Positions 13,078 through 50,652 of a stretch of 64,000 nucleotides of DNA are shown piece by piece. The DNA is taken from the NCBI RefSeq assembly GCF_029094525.1, contig NZ_CP119107.1:1302001-1366000 (forward strand), written 5' to 3'. The stretch comes from Pullulanibacillus sp. KACC 23026 (GTDB lineage Bacteria > Bacillota > Bacilli > Bacillales > Sporolactobacillaceae). Below the pieces are notes generated by a model. The model searched no databases. It saw only the letters and a program-made list of their open reading frames with translations, and was not told the DNA's origin. The stretch's first letter is position 1; each line of letters begins with the position of its first letter. Position numbers and translations under genes: made by a program.

Positions 13078-13232
13078 CAAAATCCACCTGCTTTCGATTT
13101 AAATAGTATAAGTGTAGCAAAAAATGAGCTTGGTTTCACGTTATTTGTCGAGAAGTTATTAAAGGAAATTTAATAAAGGTATAGAAAACGTAGATTATAG
13201 ACTAGACTTGGCTTTTTAAGGTGGTGAGAACA

Positions 13233-13871
13233 ATGGAGAAACGAAAAGATTCAAGGCAGGCTGTTCTGGATGCAGCTAGTCGTCTTTTTCATATGTATGG
13301 GTATGACGGAACTTCAGTAAGGGCGATTGCATCGGAAGCTGGAGTGAATGTGGCACTTATTTCTTATTATTTTGGTGGTAAGAAAGCCTTGCTCGAACAA
13401 TTGATGGAGCATTTCTTAAATGGATATATTTTAGAAATAGAAGCTTTTTTGAAAAAGAGAGAGGCGTCTGTGATCTTCCTCGATGATATCGTTCAATTAG
13501 CCGAATGCTTATTAGTTTATCAGGCCCATCATTTTTACATGGCAAGATTTGTTTTTCGCGAAATCACATTAGATTCGATGCTGACACGTGAGATTATGAC
13601 AACGTATCTTATGAAAGAGAAGTATTTATTGGAGGCCATTTTCCAACAAGTCGGATTAGTCGGTCTCGACCCTCATTATTCCTTGGATTTTTTAATCATG
13701 CAATTTCGTGATATGGTCATGTTGCCGTACAGTCAGCCTCAATACATTCGAAAAGTATACGGCTTACAACCCACCCAATCGACTTTTTTATCTCATTATA
13801 TAAAGCATGTCAGACTCTGGGTCAGAGGACTTGATGCGACAGCAACCCGCAAGCCAAAGCTCATCATATGA
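13233..13871 (+). CDS. refZ: TetR-family regulator of Z-ring positioning RefZ
   Basis: 212 aa. N-terminal TetR helix-turn-helix (DAASRLFHMYGYDGTSVRAIASEAGVNVALISYYFGGK, about 12-50) and an all-helical C-terminal domain that matches RefZ/YttP in length and in LDFLIMQFRDMVMLPYSQPQYIRKVYGLQP. RefZ binds motifs flanking the origin and promotes the shift of FtsZ from mid-cell to the pole during sporulation. ATG at 13233 is chosen because AAGGTGG (13218-13224) is its RBS; the GTG at 13221 lies inside that RBS. It lies upstream of ezrA, another Z-ring regulator, separated by the repeat region. Confidence 0.88.
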   Translation: MEKRKDSRQAVLDAASRLFHMYGYDGTSVRAIASEAGVNVALISYYFGGKKALLEQLMEHFLNGYILEIEAFLKKREASVIFLDDIVQLAECLLVYQAHHFYMARFVFREITLDSMLTREIMTTYLMKEKYLLEAIFQQVGLVGLDPHYSLDFLIMQFRDMVMLPYSQPQYIRKVYGLQPTQSTFLSHYIKHVRLWVRGLDATATRKPKLII

Positions 13872-13903: not shown

Positions 13904-13982
13904 ATTTGGGGTTATAAGTGTATGGGGGTGGGGGGGGCTTGCAACACACACTTTGGGTGGCTCTGCGCACGCCTCATCCCTT

Positions 13983-14127
13983 GCCCACCATATTGGCTCA
14001 CAACTCGTTGAATTTAGTGGGTAAGGGAGTCATGCCCACCATATTGGCCTTAGATCCCGCTGAAAATGGTGGGCAAGGGAGTCATGCCCACCATATTGAC
14101 TCACAACTCGCTTAATATGGTGGGCAA
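13983..14127 (+). repeat. Three ~51-bp hairpin units (GCCCACCATATTG family)
   Basis: Units start at 13983, 14034 and 14086 (spacing 51 and 52 bp). Each begins GCCCACCATATTG and ends in its inverted complement (AGTGGG or GGTGGGC). In the third copy GCCCACCATATT and AATATGGTGGGC form a perfect 12-bp stem; the second also pairs well. Links between units read AAGGGAGTCAT. Confidence 0.85.
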
Positions 14128-14179: not shown

Positions 14180-15175
14180 CACGCTCTGTTTTGTGTGATG
14201 GAGCCTCCAACGCGCACGTTTGGCCCTGCACCGGCCCCGGTTTTGTGTGATGGAGGCCCCAACGCACACGTTTGGCCCTGCACACGCTCTGTTTTTGTGT
14301 ATTGGAGGCTTCATCGCACACGTTTGGCCCCGCACCGGCCCCGATTTTGTGTGATGGAGGCCCCAACGCACACGTTTGGCCTTGCACCGGCCCCGATTTT
14401 GTGTGATGGAGGCCCCATCACACACGTTTGGCCCTGCACAGGCTCTGTTTTTGTGTATTGGAGGCTTCATCGCACACGTTTGGCCCTGCACACGCTCTGT
14501 TTTTGTGTGATGGAGGCCCCAACGCACACGTTTGGTCCCGCACCGGCCCCGATTTTGTGTGATGGAGGCCCCATCACACACGTTTGGTCCTGCACAGGCT
14601 CTGTTTTTGTGTGATGGAGCCTTCAACGCACACGTTTGGTCCTGCACAGGCCCCGATTTTGTGTGATGGGGCCCCCAACGCACACGTTTGGTCCTGCACA
14701 GGCTCTGTTTTTGTGTGATGGGGCCTCCAACGCACACGTTTGGCCCTGCACACGCTCTGTTTTTGTGTGATGGAGGCCCCAACGCACACGTTTGGCCCTG
14801 CACACGCTCTGTTTTTGTGTGATGGAGGCCCCAACGCACACGTTTGGCCTTGCACCGGCCCCGATTTTGTGTGATGGAGGCCCCAACGCACACGTTTGGC
14901 CTTGCACCGGCCCCGATTTTGTGTGATGGAGGCCCCATCACACACGTTTGGCCCCGCATCAGCCCCGATTTTGTGTGATGGAGCCTTCAACGCACACGTT
15001 TGGCCCCGCATCAGCCCCGATTTTGTGTGATGGGGCCCCCAACGCGCACGTCTGGCCCCGCACCGGCCCCGATTTTGTGTGATGGAGTCTCCAACGCACA
15101 CGTTTGGCCCCACACACGCTCTGTTTTTGTGTGATGGAGCCCCAACGCACACTTTTGCCTCCATCCCACGCTTCG
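14180..15175 (+). repeat. 19-copy, 52-bp intergenic tandem repeat upstream of ezrA
   Basis: Nineteen head-to-tail units of exactly 52 bp. The landmark TTGTGTGATGG recurs at 14191 and every 52 nt to 15127, with no indel. Each unit contains GTGTGATGG(A/G)G(C/G)CC, then CACACGTTTGG and a GC-rich junction that alternates between a CACACG-CTCTG form and a CACCGG-CCCCG form. GTGTGATGG and CCATCACAC make a perfect hairpin in some copies. GC is clearly higher than in flanking DNA. Degenerate half-units flank the array at about 14165 and 15190. No gene is supported between 13872 and 15501. Confidence 0.93.
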
Positions 15176-15501: not shown

Positions 15502-17202
15502 ATGTTGTTTTATGTGATTGTTGGACTTATCATCGTCATTGCCCTGATTGTTGGGTATGGTGCCTTTATGAGACGAAAAATATATAAGGATGTTGATCGC
15601 TACGCTAATTGGAAAATAAGTGTTATGAATCGACCGATTACGGATGAAATCTCTAAGGTAAAAAAAATGACTATGGGCGGGGAAACTGAAAAGAAATTTG
15701 AAGAATGGCGCCGTGATTGGGATGAAATTATTACTCTTCATCTCCCAAATGTTGAAGAGGCTCTCTTTGAAGCGGAGGAGTGCGCGGATAAATATCGATT
15801 CAAGAAGGCACGTGAGGTCCTGGCAACAGTCGATGAAAAGCTTAATGAAACCGAATTAAAGATCGGTCATATGCTTGAGGACTTAAATGTTGTTGTTGAA
15901 AGCGAAGCGCAAAATAAGAAGAATATTATTCCAATAAAAGAGCGTTATCATGACGTGAAGAAAACCTTAATCACCAGGCGCGGTGATTTTAAAAAAGCCA
16001 TTGGTTATTTTGAAAATGAGCTTAAAGAACTCGAAGAAAAACTAGAAAAATATGACCTTGAAACATCGCAGGGAAATGTCATTTTAGGCCGAGAGATTCT
16101 TACCGATGTTATGGAACAATTGGATCACCTTGAGGCAGACCTCCTCGATGTCCCTAAGTATTATAAAGATATCAAGATCATTCTCCCTAATCGGATCAAA
16201 GAACTTGAAGCCGGACTTGCTGAGATGACGGAAAAAGGCTATGTGTTAGATCACTTGGAGATTGAAACCTTTATAAATGAACTCCAAAACCATCTCATTG
16301 TTTACGAGACGGCGTTAGAGAATGCTTCTTTTAAAGAAGTCAAAGAAGGTCTTGCGGAAAGCTTCGAGCAATTAGAATGGATTTATACACAGCTAGAAAA
16401 AGAAGTGGAAGTTCGACATGCCCTTATAAAGGAAGTTCCTTCATTTAGACATGATTTAACCATTGTTGCCGGGAAAATTGAGATGATGAATCAAGAAACA
16501 GAAGAAGTTAAGAAGAGTTATCTATTAGATGAGGAAGATTTTAAAACGCGTGACAGCTTGGATGCGGTTTTTGAAGAGCTGCAAAAAGAGTTTGAAGAAG
16601 TGGACATCGTCTTTTCTGAAAATAAGCAGGCCTTTAGTATTTTATTTGAGAAGGTAGAGGATATGAGAGGGCATTTAAAAGATGTGCACTCGAAAACGGA
16701 AGCCTATCTTGAAAAATTACATCATCTTAGACATGATGAATTAGCTGCTAAAGAAAGCCTTCAGAAGCTTAAACAAAGACTTAATGAAGCTAAGCGTCTG
16801 GTACAAAAAAGCAATTTGCCAGGGATTCCTCAGACTTATGTTTCCTTGATTGAGGATTCAGATGAGTTATTATCGGAAGTCCGGGACCGATTAGATGAAA
16901 AGCCTTTAGCCATGGAGACGATTCTTCAGCTTTTAGAGGAATCTGAGGCACAAATGGACTTGGTCCATGATAAGACACTAGAAATGGTGGACTCGGCTAA
17001 TTTTACGGAACAATTGATTCAATACGGAAACCGGTATCGTCGTCAAAATCCTAGGCTTGATGAAGAACTTAAAGAAGCAGAAGCGGCTTTCAGAAGCTAT
17101 AATTACGGAGAATCTGTTGAGATTGCAGCGAGTGCTATAAACAAAATTGATCCAGGTGCTTTAAAGAAATTCCAAATCGTCAAGGAAGAACATATTAGTT
17201 AG
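15502..17202 (+). CDS. ezrA: Septation ring formation regulator EzrA
   Basis: 566 aa membrane-anchored negative regulator of FtsZ ring assembly. It has one N-terminal transmembrane helix (about 3-22, Nout/Ccyt in the family) followed by a long cytoplasmic region of spectrin-like coiled-coil repeats rich in Glu, Lys and Leu. The C-terminal block ends ...YNYGESVEIAASAINKIDPGA, the conserved EzrA patch region. Length and sequence match B. subtilis EzrA (562 aa). The ATG at 15502 has GGGGGA 6 nt upstream. Unlike B. subtilis, it is separated from refZ by ~1.6 kb of tandem repeats. Confidence 0.95.
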   Translation: MLFYVIVGLIIVIALIVGYGAFMRRKIYKDVDRYANWKISVMNRPITDEISKVKKMTMGGETEKKFEEWRRDWDEIITLHLPNVEEALFEAEECADKYRFKKAREVLATVDEKLNETELKIGHMLEDLNVVVESEAQNKKNIIPIKERYHDVKKTLITRRGDFKKAIGYFENELKELEEKLEKYDLETSQGNVILGREILTDVMEQLDHLEADLLDVPKYYKDIKIILPNRIKELEAGLAEMTEKGYVLDHLEIETFINELQNHLIVYETALENASFKEVKEGLAESFEQLEWIYTQLEKEVEVRHALIKEVPSFRHDLTIVAGKIEMMNQETEEVKKSYLLDEEDFKTRDSLDAVFEELQKEFEEVDIVFSENKQAFSILFEKVEDMRGHLKDVHSKTEAYLEKLHHLRHDELAAKESLQKLKQRLNEAKRLVQKSNLPGIPQTYVSLIEDSDELLSEVRDRLDEKPLAMETILQLLEESEAQMDLVHDKTLEMVDSANFTEQLIQYGNRYRRQNPRLDEELKEAEAAFRSYNYGESVEIAASAINKIDPGALKKFQIVKEEHIS

Positions 17203-31770: not shown

Positions 31771-32335
31771 AGCGCAATGAGGTTACGCTCAGGCGTTGGG
31801 AATGGGCAAAAAAAGCGGAAATAGAGTAATGAGGTTACGCCTAATTAGTTTAGGCGTAACGCGGATACGTTAACGCGTTGGGAATGGGCAAAAAAAACGG
31901 AAATAGAGTAATGAGGTTACGCCTAATTAGTTTAGGCGTAACGAGAATGCGTTAACGCGTTGGGAAAGGGCGAAAAAAGTGGAAATAGAGTAATGAGGTT
32001 ACGCCTAATTAGTTTAGGCGTAACGAGAATGCGTTAACGCGTTGGAAATGGACGAAAAACCGGCAAATAGAGTAATGAGGTTACGCCTAATTAGTTTAGG
32101 CGTAACGAGAATGCGTTAACGCGTTGGAAATGGACGAAAAACCGGCAAATAGAGTAATGAGGTTACGCCTAATTAGTTTAGGCGTAACGAGAATGCGTTA
32201 ACGCGTTGGGAAAAGGCGAAAAAAGCGGAAATAGAGTAATGAGGTTACGCCTAATTAGTTAAGGCGTAACGAGAATACGTTAACGCATAAGAAAATGGCC
32301 ACTTGGCAAAATGGCGTAACGAGAATGCGTTATCG
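31771..32335 (+). repeat. 82-bp tandem repeat array (six units plus one 52-bp unit) upstream of thuA
   Basis: The landmark GAGTAATGAGGTTACGCC recurs at 31824, 31906, 31988, 32070, 32152 and 32234, every 82 bp. A shorter first unit (31771) lacks ~30 bp and gives a 52-bp step. Each full unit holds a perfect hairpin GTTACGCCTAA/TTAGGCGTAAC and the palindrome GCGTTAACGC. Copies differ by a few substitutions; the last is the most diverged. No gene lies between 31747 and 32381. Confidence 0.93.
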
Positions 32336-50258: not shown

Positions 50259-50652
50259 AGGGAATAAGCAACTAACTGTGCTCAAAATCCTTTTTGGAAA
50301 GATTGGGATTTCTCGCATACATGGGTTTATGAGAGTGTTATGGGAATAGATAACTAACTGTGCTCAAAATCCTTTTTGGAAAGATTGGGATTTCTCGCAT
50401 ACATGGGTTGATGAGAGTGTTATGGAAATAAGTAAATGGCTGTGCTCAAAATCCTTTTTGGAAAGATTGGGATTTCTCGCATACTTGGGTTGATGAGAGT
50501 GTTATGGGAATAAGTAAATGGCTGTGCTCAAAATCCTTTTTGGAAAGATTGGGATTTCTCGCATACATGGGTTGATGAGAGTGTTATGGAAATAAGTAAA
50601 TGGCTGTGCTCAAAATCCTTTTTGGAAAGATTGGGATTTCTCGCATACTTGA
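50259..50652 (+). repeat. 82-bp tandem repeat array upstream of citZ (four full units plus a partial fifth)
   Basis: The landmark CTGTGCTCAAAATCC recurs at 50276, 50358, 50440, 50522 and 50604, every 82 bp, with near-identity between copies. Units contain AAATCC and GGATTT arms that can pair. Sequence is unrelated to the 31771-32335 array. No gene is seen in the 722 bp between ytvI and citZ; 50082-50258 holds nothing recognisable. Confidence 0.93.

Follow-up and report, generated by a model that had tools for sequence, protein, structure and literature searches.

The intergenic gap upstream of ezrA in Pullulanibacillus sp. KACC 23026 holds a tandem array whose units vary in sequence and keep one length, which raises the question of what fixes that length and whether the array serves the genes beside it. 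We analyzed a 64,000-bp window around this locus (Table 1; positions in this section refer to the window) together with the chromosome, a single contig of 4.80 Mb. TRF describes the array as a repeat of period 52 with 18.7 copies, 86% matches, 0% indels and a score of 1288. Counted by core spacing, its 19 left half-sites run from 14193 to 15129, or 18 x 52 = 936 bp; the few 51- and 53-bp steps in this count are an artefact of an alternative regular expression that begins one base earlier. Both methods bear out the initial annotation, which had described 19 consecutive units at an exact 52-bp step over 936 bp. Inspection of the sequence shows a 1-bp loss in the degenerate final copy after 15129. 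The array has a GC content of 58.7%, compared to 41.3% in an 800-kb sample of the genome.

The products of the flanking genes are a GAF-domain protein, a TetR-family regulator, EzrA and a class-V aminotransferase. These Pfam assignments confirm the reported position between ezrA, whose product is 49% identical to EzrA of Pullulanibacillus camelliae, and the TetR-family gene, which from the gene order of B. subtilis we take to be refZ. A distance of 344 bp separates the array from the start of ezrA. Immediately upstream of the array lies a second array of period 52, unlike it in sequence, whose family assignment is the weakest in our census (score 0.17; its family and strand were chosen by inspection). 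A promoter scan upstream of ezrA gave one site, on the opposite strand, against 1.5 expected, and terminator-like sites there numbered 0 against 2.7 expected. Rfam returned no match above the gathering score in the 64-kb window. The window contains two further repeats: a 51-bp, 13.6-copy repeat at 457-1152 within a 957-amino-acid open reading frame, which is coding and apparently unrelated to the satellites, and an 82-bp array at 50276-50648 (4.5 copies, 96% matches) that falls outside the families described below.

Table 1. Repeat arrays and genes at and near the locus, in window coordinates
Feature	Position	Strand	Basis
Family-A 52-bp satellite array, 19 cores	14189..15157	+	TRF, core spacing, sequence
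Family-E array, period 52, 2.8 copies, inverted repeat TGCCCACCATATT..AATATGGTGGGCA	13982..14127	-	TRF
Family-C array, period 82, 6.0 copies, 81/82-bp class	31793..32286	+	TRF, genome-wide family census
TetR-family regulator gene	13221..13871	+	ORF, Pfam TetR_N E=2.6e-16
ezrA	15502..17202	+	ORF, Pfam EzrA 526 bits, E=1e-157

A genome rich in satellite families

The initial annotation had proposed a search for the unit elsewhere in the genome. As a blastn query against its own chromosome, the array gave 52 matches at about 29 places (grouped by hand), and it belongs to a satellite family with loci throughout the genome. Combining TRF with similarity searches, we counted at least 121 arrays in five families (A, 26; B, 20; C, 38; D, 33; E, 4), which together occupy at least 117,653 bp (117.7 kb), or 2.45% of the chromosome. 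Units are 52 bp long in families A and B, 81 or 82 bp in C and 51 or 52 bp in E, and family D proceeds in 21-bp steps that average 20.79 bp. The family counts are lower bounds: TRF covered 1.49 Mb (a systematic 800-kb sample, the window and places found by similarity), 40 of 71 candidates were scored for C and 40 of 42 for D, and E was counted without a similarity search. Scores assigned 110 arrays to families, and 11 arrays missed in the first pass were included after inspection, their family and strand being assigned manually. Judged against gene calls from a simple codon-score script rather than an annotation pipeline, the arrays are intergenic except for seven that such calls overlap by at least 30%; four of these belong to family C, and the 2.3-copy A array at 2627444 and the E array at 589613 are overlapped wholly. 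At G000:C1:469346-475560, two large family-D arrays with many higher-order periods lie inside 6.2 kb.

These properties place the array in a known, unexplained class of 52-nt bacterial satellites. Subirana and Messeguer (PMC8161180) described constant-length, noncoding satellites of 52 or 20-21 nt that form several families per genome and are species-specific. They remarked that 20-21 nt corresponds to two helical turns, proposed that the satellites act as nucleoid-protein sites or as RNAs, and did not settle what holds them at exactly 52 or 21 bp in unrelated bacteria. Constant length, noncoding position and several families at many loci are all present in this genome, as are units of 52 +/- 1 bp, short conserved motifs together with their reverse inside the unit, and a 21-bp class. 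Unlike in that study, 52-bp, 21-bp and 81/82-bp classes coexist here, and helical phasing is measured; we found no description of an 81/82-bp satellite class in our literature search. Dispersed families of noncoding satellites were rare in an earlier survey (PMC6749651). The STAR elements of Staphylococcus (PMC3532100) are likewise intergenic, dispersed and GC-rich, with tandem units of about 50 nt and locus-specific sequence, and their function is similarly unexplained. The arrays here differ from them in being strictly periodic and in not being built on the STAR core; the 14-bp core T(G/A/T)TGTTG(G/T)GGCCC(C/A) had 0 matches in the 121 arrays.

Constant length, palindromic core and helical phase

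Constant spacing despite substitutions, noted initially for the single array, proved to be a property of whole families. Among core-to-core steps of 46-58 bp, 323 of 330 in family A are exactly 52 bp (the others are six of 51 and one of 54), as are 425 of 440 in family B. Units differ from the consensus of their own array by 4.8 of 52 positions in A (321 units from 23 of the 26 arrays) and 5.4 of 52 in B (421 units from 20 arrays), and array consensuses differ from each other by 15.0 and 10.1 of 52 positions, respectively. Taken as products of the per-unit figures, the differing bases sum to about 1,500 in A and 2,300 in B. These divergence statistics come from core-anchored units of exact length, and the information on indels comes solely from the step counts. 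In family C, steps of 76-88 bp comprise 204 of 81 bp, 175 of 82 bp and two others, and the 81- and 82-bp steps are mixed in 27 of the 34 arrays with at least five steps. Family D has 1,073 steps of 21 bp, 188 of 41 bp and 70 of 40 bp; in patterns such as 21, 21, 21, 21, 41, these yield a mean step of 20.79 +/- 0.07 bp across 33 arrays. The mean step of family D thus equals two turns of 10.4 bp, reached by 41- or 40-bp steps among the 21s. Homogenisation by unequal exchange, which the initial annotation had offered as one cause of constant length, would not by itself explain a single length at loci that differ at 15 of 52 positions.

Within the unit, an imperfect palindrome of 23-25 bp is followed by a more variable spacer. 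Because unit statistics anchored on the core (72% match, exact length) inflate core conservation and pairing, the conservation of family A was recomputed with phase-based units, which are free of core anchoring. In 24 A arrays treated in this way, one base occupies at least 90% of consensuses at 15 of the 23 palindrome positions versus 8 of the 29 other positions. The family A core consists of two unlike half-sites: pairs 5-7/25-27 and 11-12/20-21 are Watson-Crick in 93-97% of cases, and the rest in 19-75%. In core-anchored units, pair 10/22 has the same base on both sides, a mismatch, in 19 of 23 arrays versus 13.2 expected (p 0.01; within arrays, p 0.07). Because this covariation runs against pairing, it speaks neither for a perfectly paired RNA hairpin nor for a perfect dyad. 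The 25-bp core of family B, GGCGTTCATC-AAGGG-GATGAACGCC, is more regular; in core-anchored units, Watson-Crick pairing reaches 94%, and 211 of the 421 units have ten pairs without a mismatch. In units of this kind, wobble pairs amount to 1.3% and 1.3% on the two strands in B and to 8.3% and 10.1% in A. This near equality favors a symmetry of the DNA over a hairpin in one RNA, in a test that mixed array orientations weaken. Across 31 unit consensuses, 15 have no significant palindrome.

A length of 52 bp corresponds to five turns of B-DNA, as the initial annotation had pointed out, and we found this correspondence reflected in base composition. For the 27 consensus units from 13 species published in PMC8161180 (Table 1 of that study), the mean A/T power at 10.4 bp, the fifth harmonic, is 3.0, compared to 1.03 in base shuffles (p 0.0005, 2,000 shuffles); one family per species gives 3.1. 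Control windows drawn from the present genome, rather than from the species of the published families, have means of 1.26 (intergenic, n = 4,046) and 1.11 (coding, n = 2,340), and sets of 27 random intergenic windows never reached 3.0 in 20,000 draws. By A/T content, 10.4 bp is the top of 13 harmonics in 16 of the 27 published families, and 11 peak elsewhere. Averaged over the set, no other harmonic is as large, whether A/T, AA/TT or A-tract runs are measured (p 0.001 each), and 10.4 bp ranks first in individual families in 9 of 27 by AA/TT and 8 of 27 by A-tract runs. The consensuses of families A and B together have an A/T power of 3.97 versus about 1.0 when shuffled (p 0.0045; p 0.002 in a repeat test), and in both families the signal exceeds all 60 column permutations. 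By this plain A/T measure, 10.4 bp leads all harmonics in B, and in A only 26 bp exceeds it. By AA/TT, a 7.4-bp harmonic exceeds the 10.4-bp one (k5 p 0.04), and by A-tract runs the 10.4-bp signal is not significant (p 0.12). The 38 arrays of family C do not fit 10.4 bp per turn, with peaks at 10.2, 11.6 and 20.4 bp.

The A/T signal also has a defined relation to the palindrome. Among the 16 families with a significant palindrome, related ones included, 15 have an A/T phase within 0.9 rad of pi relative to the palindrome center, so that the dyad is G/C-rich and A/T lies half a turn away; for a symmetric signal, this phase amounts to a choice between 0 and pi. The opposite phase occurs in one palindromic family, pseudalcaliphilus 26_53_11. 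In a stricter set, with five related families dropped and 300 shuffles, the phase is near pi in 9 of 9; 26_53_11 is outside this set because its palindrome missed p 0.05, and not through relatedness. As far as we searched the literature, a 10.4-bp phasing test of 52-nt satellites is new, although a study by Subirana and Messeguer in J. Bacteriol. 2020 (doi 10.1128/JB.00229-20) may contain one. For bacterial genomes at large, phasing of A-tracts and a connection with nucleoid proteins have been described (PMC3940949).

Occurrence in other genomes and placement on the chromosome

The initial annotation placed the array between two Z-ring regulators and held that complete absence from close relatives with normal refZ-ezrA behaviour would point to neutral satellite DNA. 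TRF applied to up to 1.5 kb upstream of ezrA (523 bp in L110) found no 52-bp array in 24 of the 25 other genomes of the family, G004 being left out, and two of these regions (L120 and L121) have weak 20-bp rows of 1.9 copies. There is likewise no such array upstream of ezrA in P. camelliae, a species perhaps among the 24 genomes. In addition, the 26 family-A arrays occupy many other intergenic gaps. On both grounds we rejected the Z-ring link, and the array has no shown link to either flanking gene, the TetR-family gene or ezrA. A search with array A gave no match in 38 relatives and none in the plasmids searched. The family A core, with 197 + 204 hits in this genome, is absent from 112 of 119 other genomes of the order and present at a single site in seven, counted as at most one per strand per genome.

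The class itself extends beyond this genome. A strict pattern of the B core occurs in 13 of 397 genomes of the order and exceeds two sites here (119 + 70) and in just two others, G317 (12) and G075 (7); a reversed-pattern control gave 0 in all three. A looser pattern, in which a palindromic site may score on both strands, gave 63 + 112 hits, many at 52-bp steps, in the family member G008 and at most 10 in each of the other 24 relatives. TRF detects 52-bp arrays in G317 and G075 and one such array in G008. Judged by sequence, the B core is therefore common to 52-bp arrays of three other genomes, across bacterial families, and by eye it also resembles B. litoralis 42_52_9 and B. coagulans 8_52_18. 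No sequence conservation was reported among the satellites of PMC8161180, in contrast to this sharing between bacterial families. The absence that the initial annotation would have taken as a refutation thus holds for the ezrA locus, but not for the class, given the other 52-bp arrays in G008, G075 and G317.

In viral contigs, core A matched 0 stretches and core B 19, of which 18 have a single match and one (L244) has three at irregular distances; L243 and L244 belong to the same contig. A phage origin was rejected after TRF found no 52-bp array in L234, L243 and L244, the three of the 19 viral core-B loci examined in this way. Another genome, G020, carries an array at L104:14769-15851 with 20-21-bp subunits (CGGCTGAAAAAAG) and higher-order periods of 102, 183, 285 and 387 bp, which is like family D in form and has another sequence.

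Along the chromosome, the origin lies near position 0, where there are two parS sites, and the sign of the GC skew switches from the sample at 2.42 Mb to that at 2.54 Mb; for counting orientation, we set the terminus at 2.48 Mb. Taken together, the arrays follow Poisson spacing (gap CV 1.04, null 0.84-1.18) and are distributed evenly between origin and terminus (KS p 0.53). Regular spacing was not found, and nothing in this placement points to regular loops. By family, arrays of A and B are concentrated in the half around the terminus (KS p 0.002 and 0.0004), and those of C and D show no significant deviation (p 0.07 each). Neighbors belong to the same family in 41 cases versus 29.3 expected (p 0.007). 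In eight Mantel tests of similarity against chromosomal distance, family A gave rho -0.15 (p 0.02), its most similar arrays lying 470 kb apart versus 1,010 kb by chance (p 0.0015); B and C gave nothing and D p 0.11, and with mirrored distance from the origin, A gave p 0.025 and D p 0.03. We draw nothing firm from these similarity-distance results.

For 113 of the 121 arrays the gene context could be read, and 86 of these lie in co-directional, 15 in convergent and 12 in divergent gaps. The corresponding numbers for array-free gaps of at least 150 bp are 174, 32 and 51, so divergent gaps look somewhat under-used. The median distance of arrays is 146 bp from the 3' ends and 224 bp from the 5' starts of genes. 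Of the 117 A-D arrays, 87 are co-oriented with replication (A, 19/26; B, 16/20; C, 28/38; D, 24/33), a share about equal to that of genes (521 of 637 in the sample); two strand calls disagreed for the arrays at 2627444 and 3759658, and each choice shifts the orientation count by one. Of the 83 arrays between co-directional genes, 62 are on the strand of those genes. Replication and transcription are not separable as the cause of this orientation, the 10 discordant pairs dividing six against four.

Explanations for a constant 52-bp unit

The reading that we consider best is that the arrays are helix-phased, dyad-symmetric DNA modules for a putative nucleoid protein, with a probability of roughly 0.45, slightly short of an even chance. 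Each 52-bp unit would be a five-turn module with an imperfect palindrome, a G/C-rich dyad and a more variable spacer, and its A/T-rich stretches, half a helical turn off the dyad, would recur at 10.4 bp. Tandem units would then bring all dyads and A/T stretches to the same side of the helix, where a nucleoid protein with dyad symmetry may bind or bend each unit and might polymerize along the array. We infer that such a complex could form a local scaffold in intergenic DNA, whatever the neighboring genes, with a possible role in chromosome folding. Support comes from the constant unit length, the palindrome being more conserved than the rest of the unit, the A/T phasing at 10.4 bp, the mean step of family D, the phase of the dyad, the near equality of wobble pairs on the two strands, the recurrence of the B core at 52-bp spacing in other genomes and the presence of arrays in all three kinds of gap. 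Several results sit poorly with this reading. The 10.4-bp signal in our own A and B families is clear for plain A/T content only, family C is off 10.4 bp, and 11 of the 27 published families peak at another harmonic; 15 of 31 consensuses lack a significant palindrome, one palindromic family has the opposite phase, and the family A palindrome mostly keeps a mismatch. Poisson spacing and overall uniform placement also count against it, as does the transcription of 52-nt repeats reported for B. coagulans (PMC8625621).

That transcription is instead what would be expected if the arrays worked through RNAs with hairpins, such as sponges or antisense RNAs, and palindromes able to fold and the excess of arrays on the genes' strand in co-directional gaps (62 of 83) agree with such a role. 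However, G-U pairs are not in excess over A-C in the stems on either strand (mixed orientations weaken this test), arrays also occur in convergent and divergent gaps and in reverse, one stem position is mismatched in 19 of 23 family-A arrays, and Rfam has no match in the window. The 10.4-bp phasing is a property of DNA, and orientation is inseparable from replication. The structured noncoding RNA raised in the initial annotation, with neither strand favored by wobble pairs, thus seems improbable while keeping some weight. More credit, though still less than an even chance by some way, goes to neutral or selfish satellite DNA, in which units would spread and be homogenised through slippage and unequal exchange, and the length and phase would come from a mutational preference for whole-turn duplications in curved DNA and not from selection. 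The random chromosomal placement, the distance of arrays from gene ends, the lack of matches to the array in 38 relatives and of an array before ezrA in 24, the scarcity of core A in the order (absent in 112 and single in 7 of 119 genomes) and the only partial conservation of satellites between B. coagulans strains (PMC8161180) are all consistent with it. Against it, the palindrome is conserved within units while the spacer drifts, the B core is common to several bacterial families, and few length changes accompany base differences that number about 1,500 in A and 2,300 in B. REP/BIME palindromes share with the arrays their dispersed, extragenic position (PMC3733652). Palindromes, dispersal, seven Y1-transposase matches in the genome and co-orientation with replication would suit a spread of REP/BIME-like units on single-stranded DNA by a RAYT or IS200-type transposase. 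We regard this origin as very unlikely, because the exact 52-bp tandem period is unlike REP, GTAG or CGTC tags near the palindrome ends are practically missing (no more than 2 of 321 units in A and none of 421 in B), and just one of the seven Y1 matches (2239370, with a stop) lies less than 1 kb from an A-E array. A local element controlling expression of refZ or ezrA, or placement of the Z ring, is suggested by the position between these genes and is the least credible proposal, given the 344 bp to the ezrA start, the occurrence of family A in many other gaps and the lack of such an array upstream of ezrA in 24 relatives and P. camelliae.

A broader and more doubtful proposal is that the 52-bp and 21-bp satellites form one structural code of whole-turn modules, with A/T stretches in phase and the G/C dyad opposite, read by a putative nucleoid protein of Firmicutes, and that the B core marks the site of one such protein. 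Such modules would follow a pattern similar to the nucleosomal DNA sequence rule. The phasing and dyad findings offer a physical reason for 52 bp that is directly testable in vitro, the shared B core provides bait DNA from several genera for finding a protein, and family C, being off 10.4 bp, constitutes a natural counter-test of helical phasing.

Two further features of the chromosome concern mobile or palindromic sequences. The Y1 (IS200-type) transposase frame with a stop, at G000:C1:2239370-2239726, has the family-C array of 2240094 as a neighbor at a distance of about 370 bp. At G000:C1 450234, 601160, 873865 and 2931610, short repeats of 39-50 bp have in common a GGGACGGATCTC-like or related palindrome and possibly represent a separate family of REP type.
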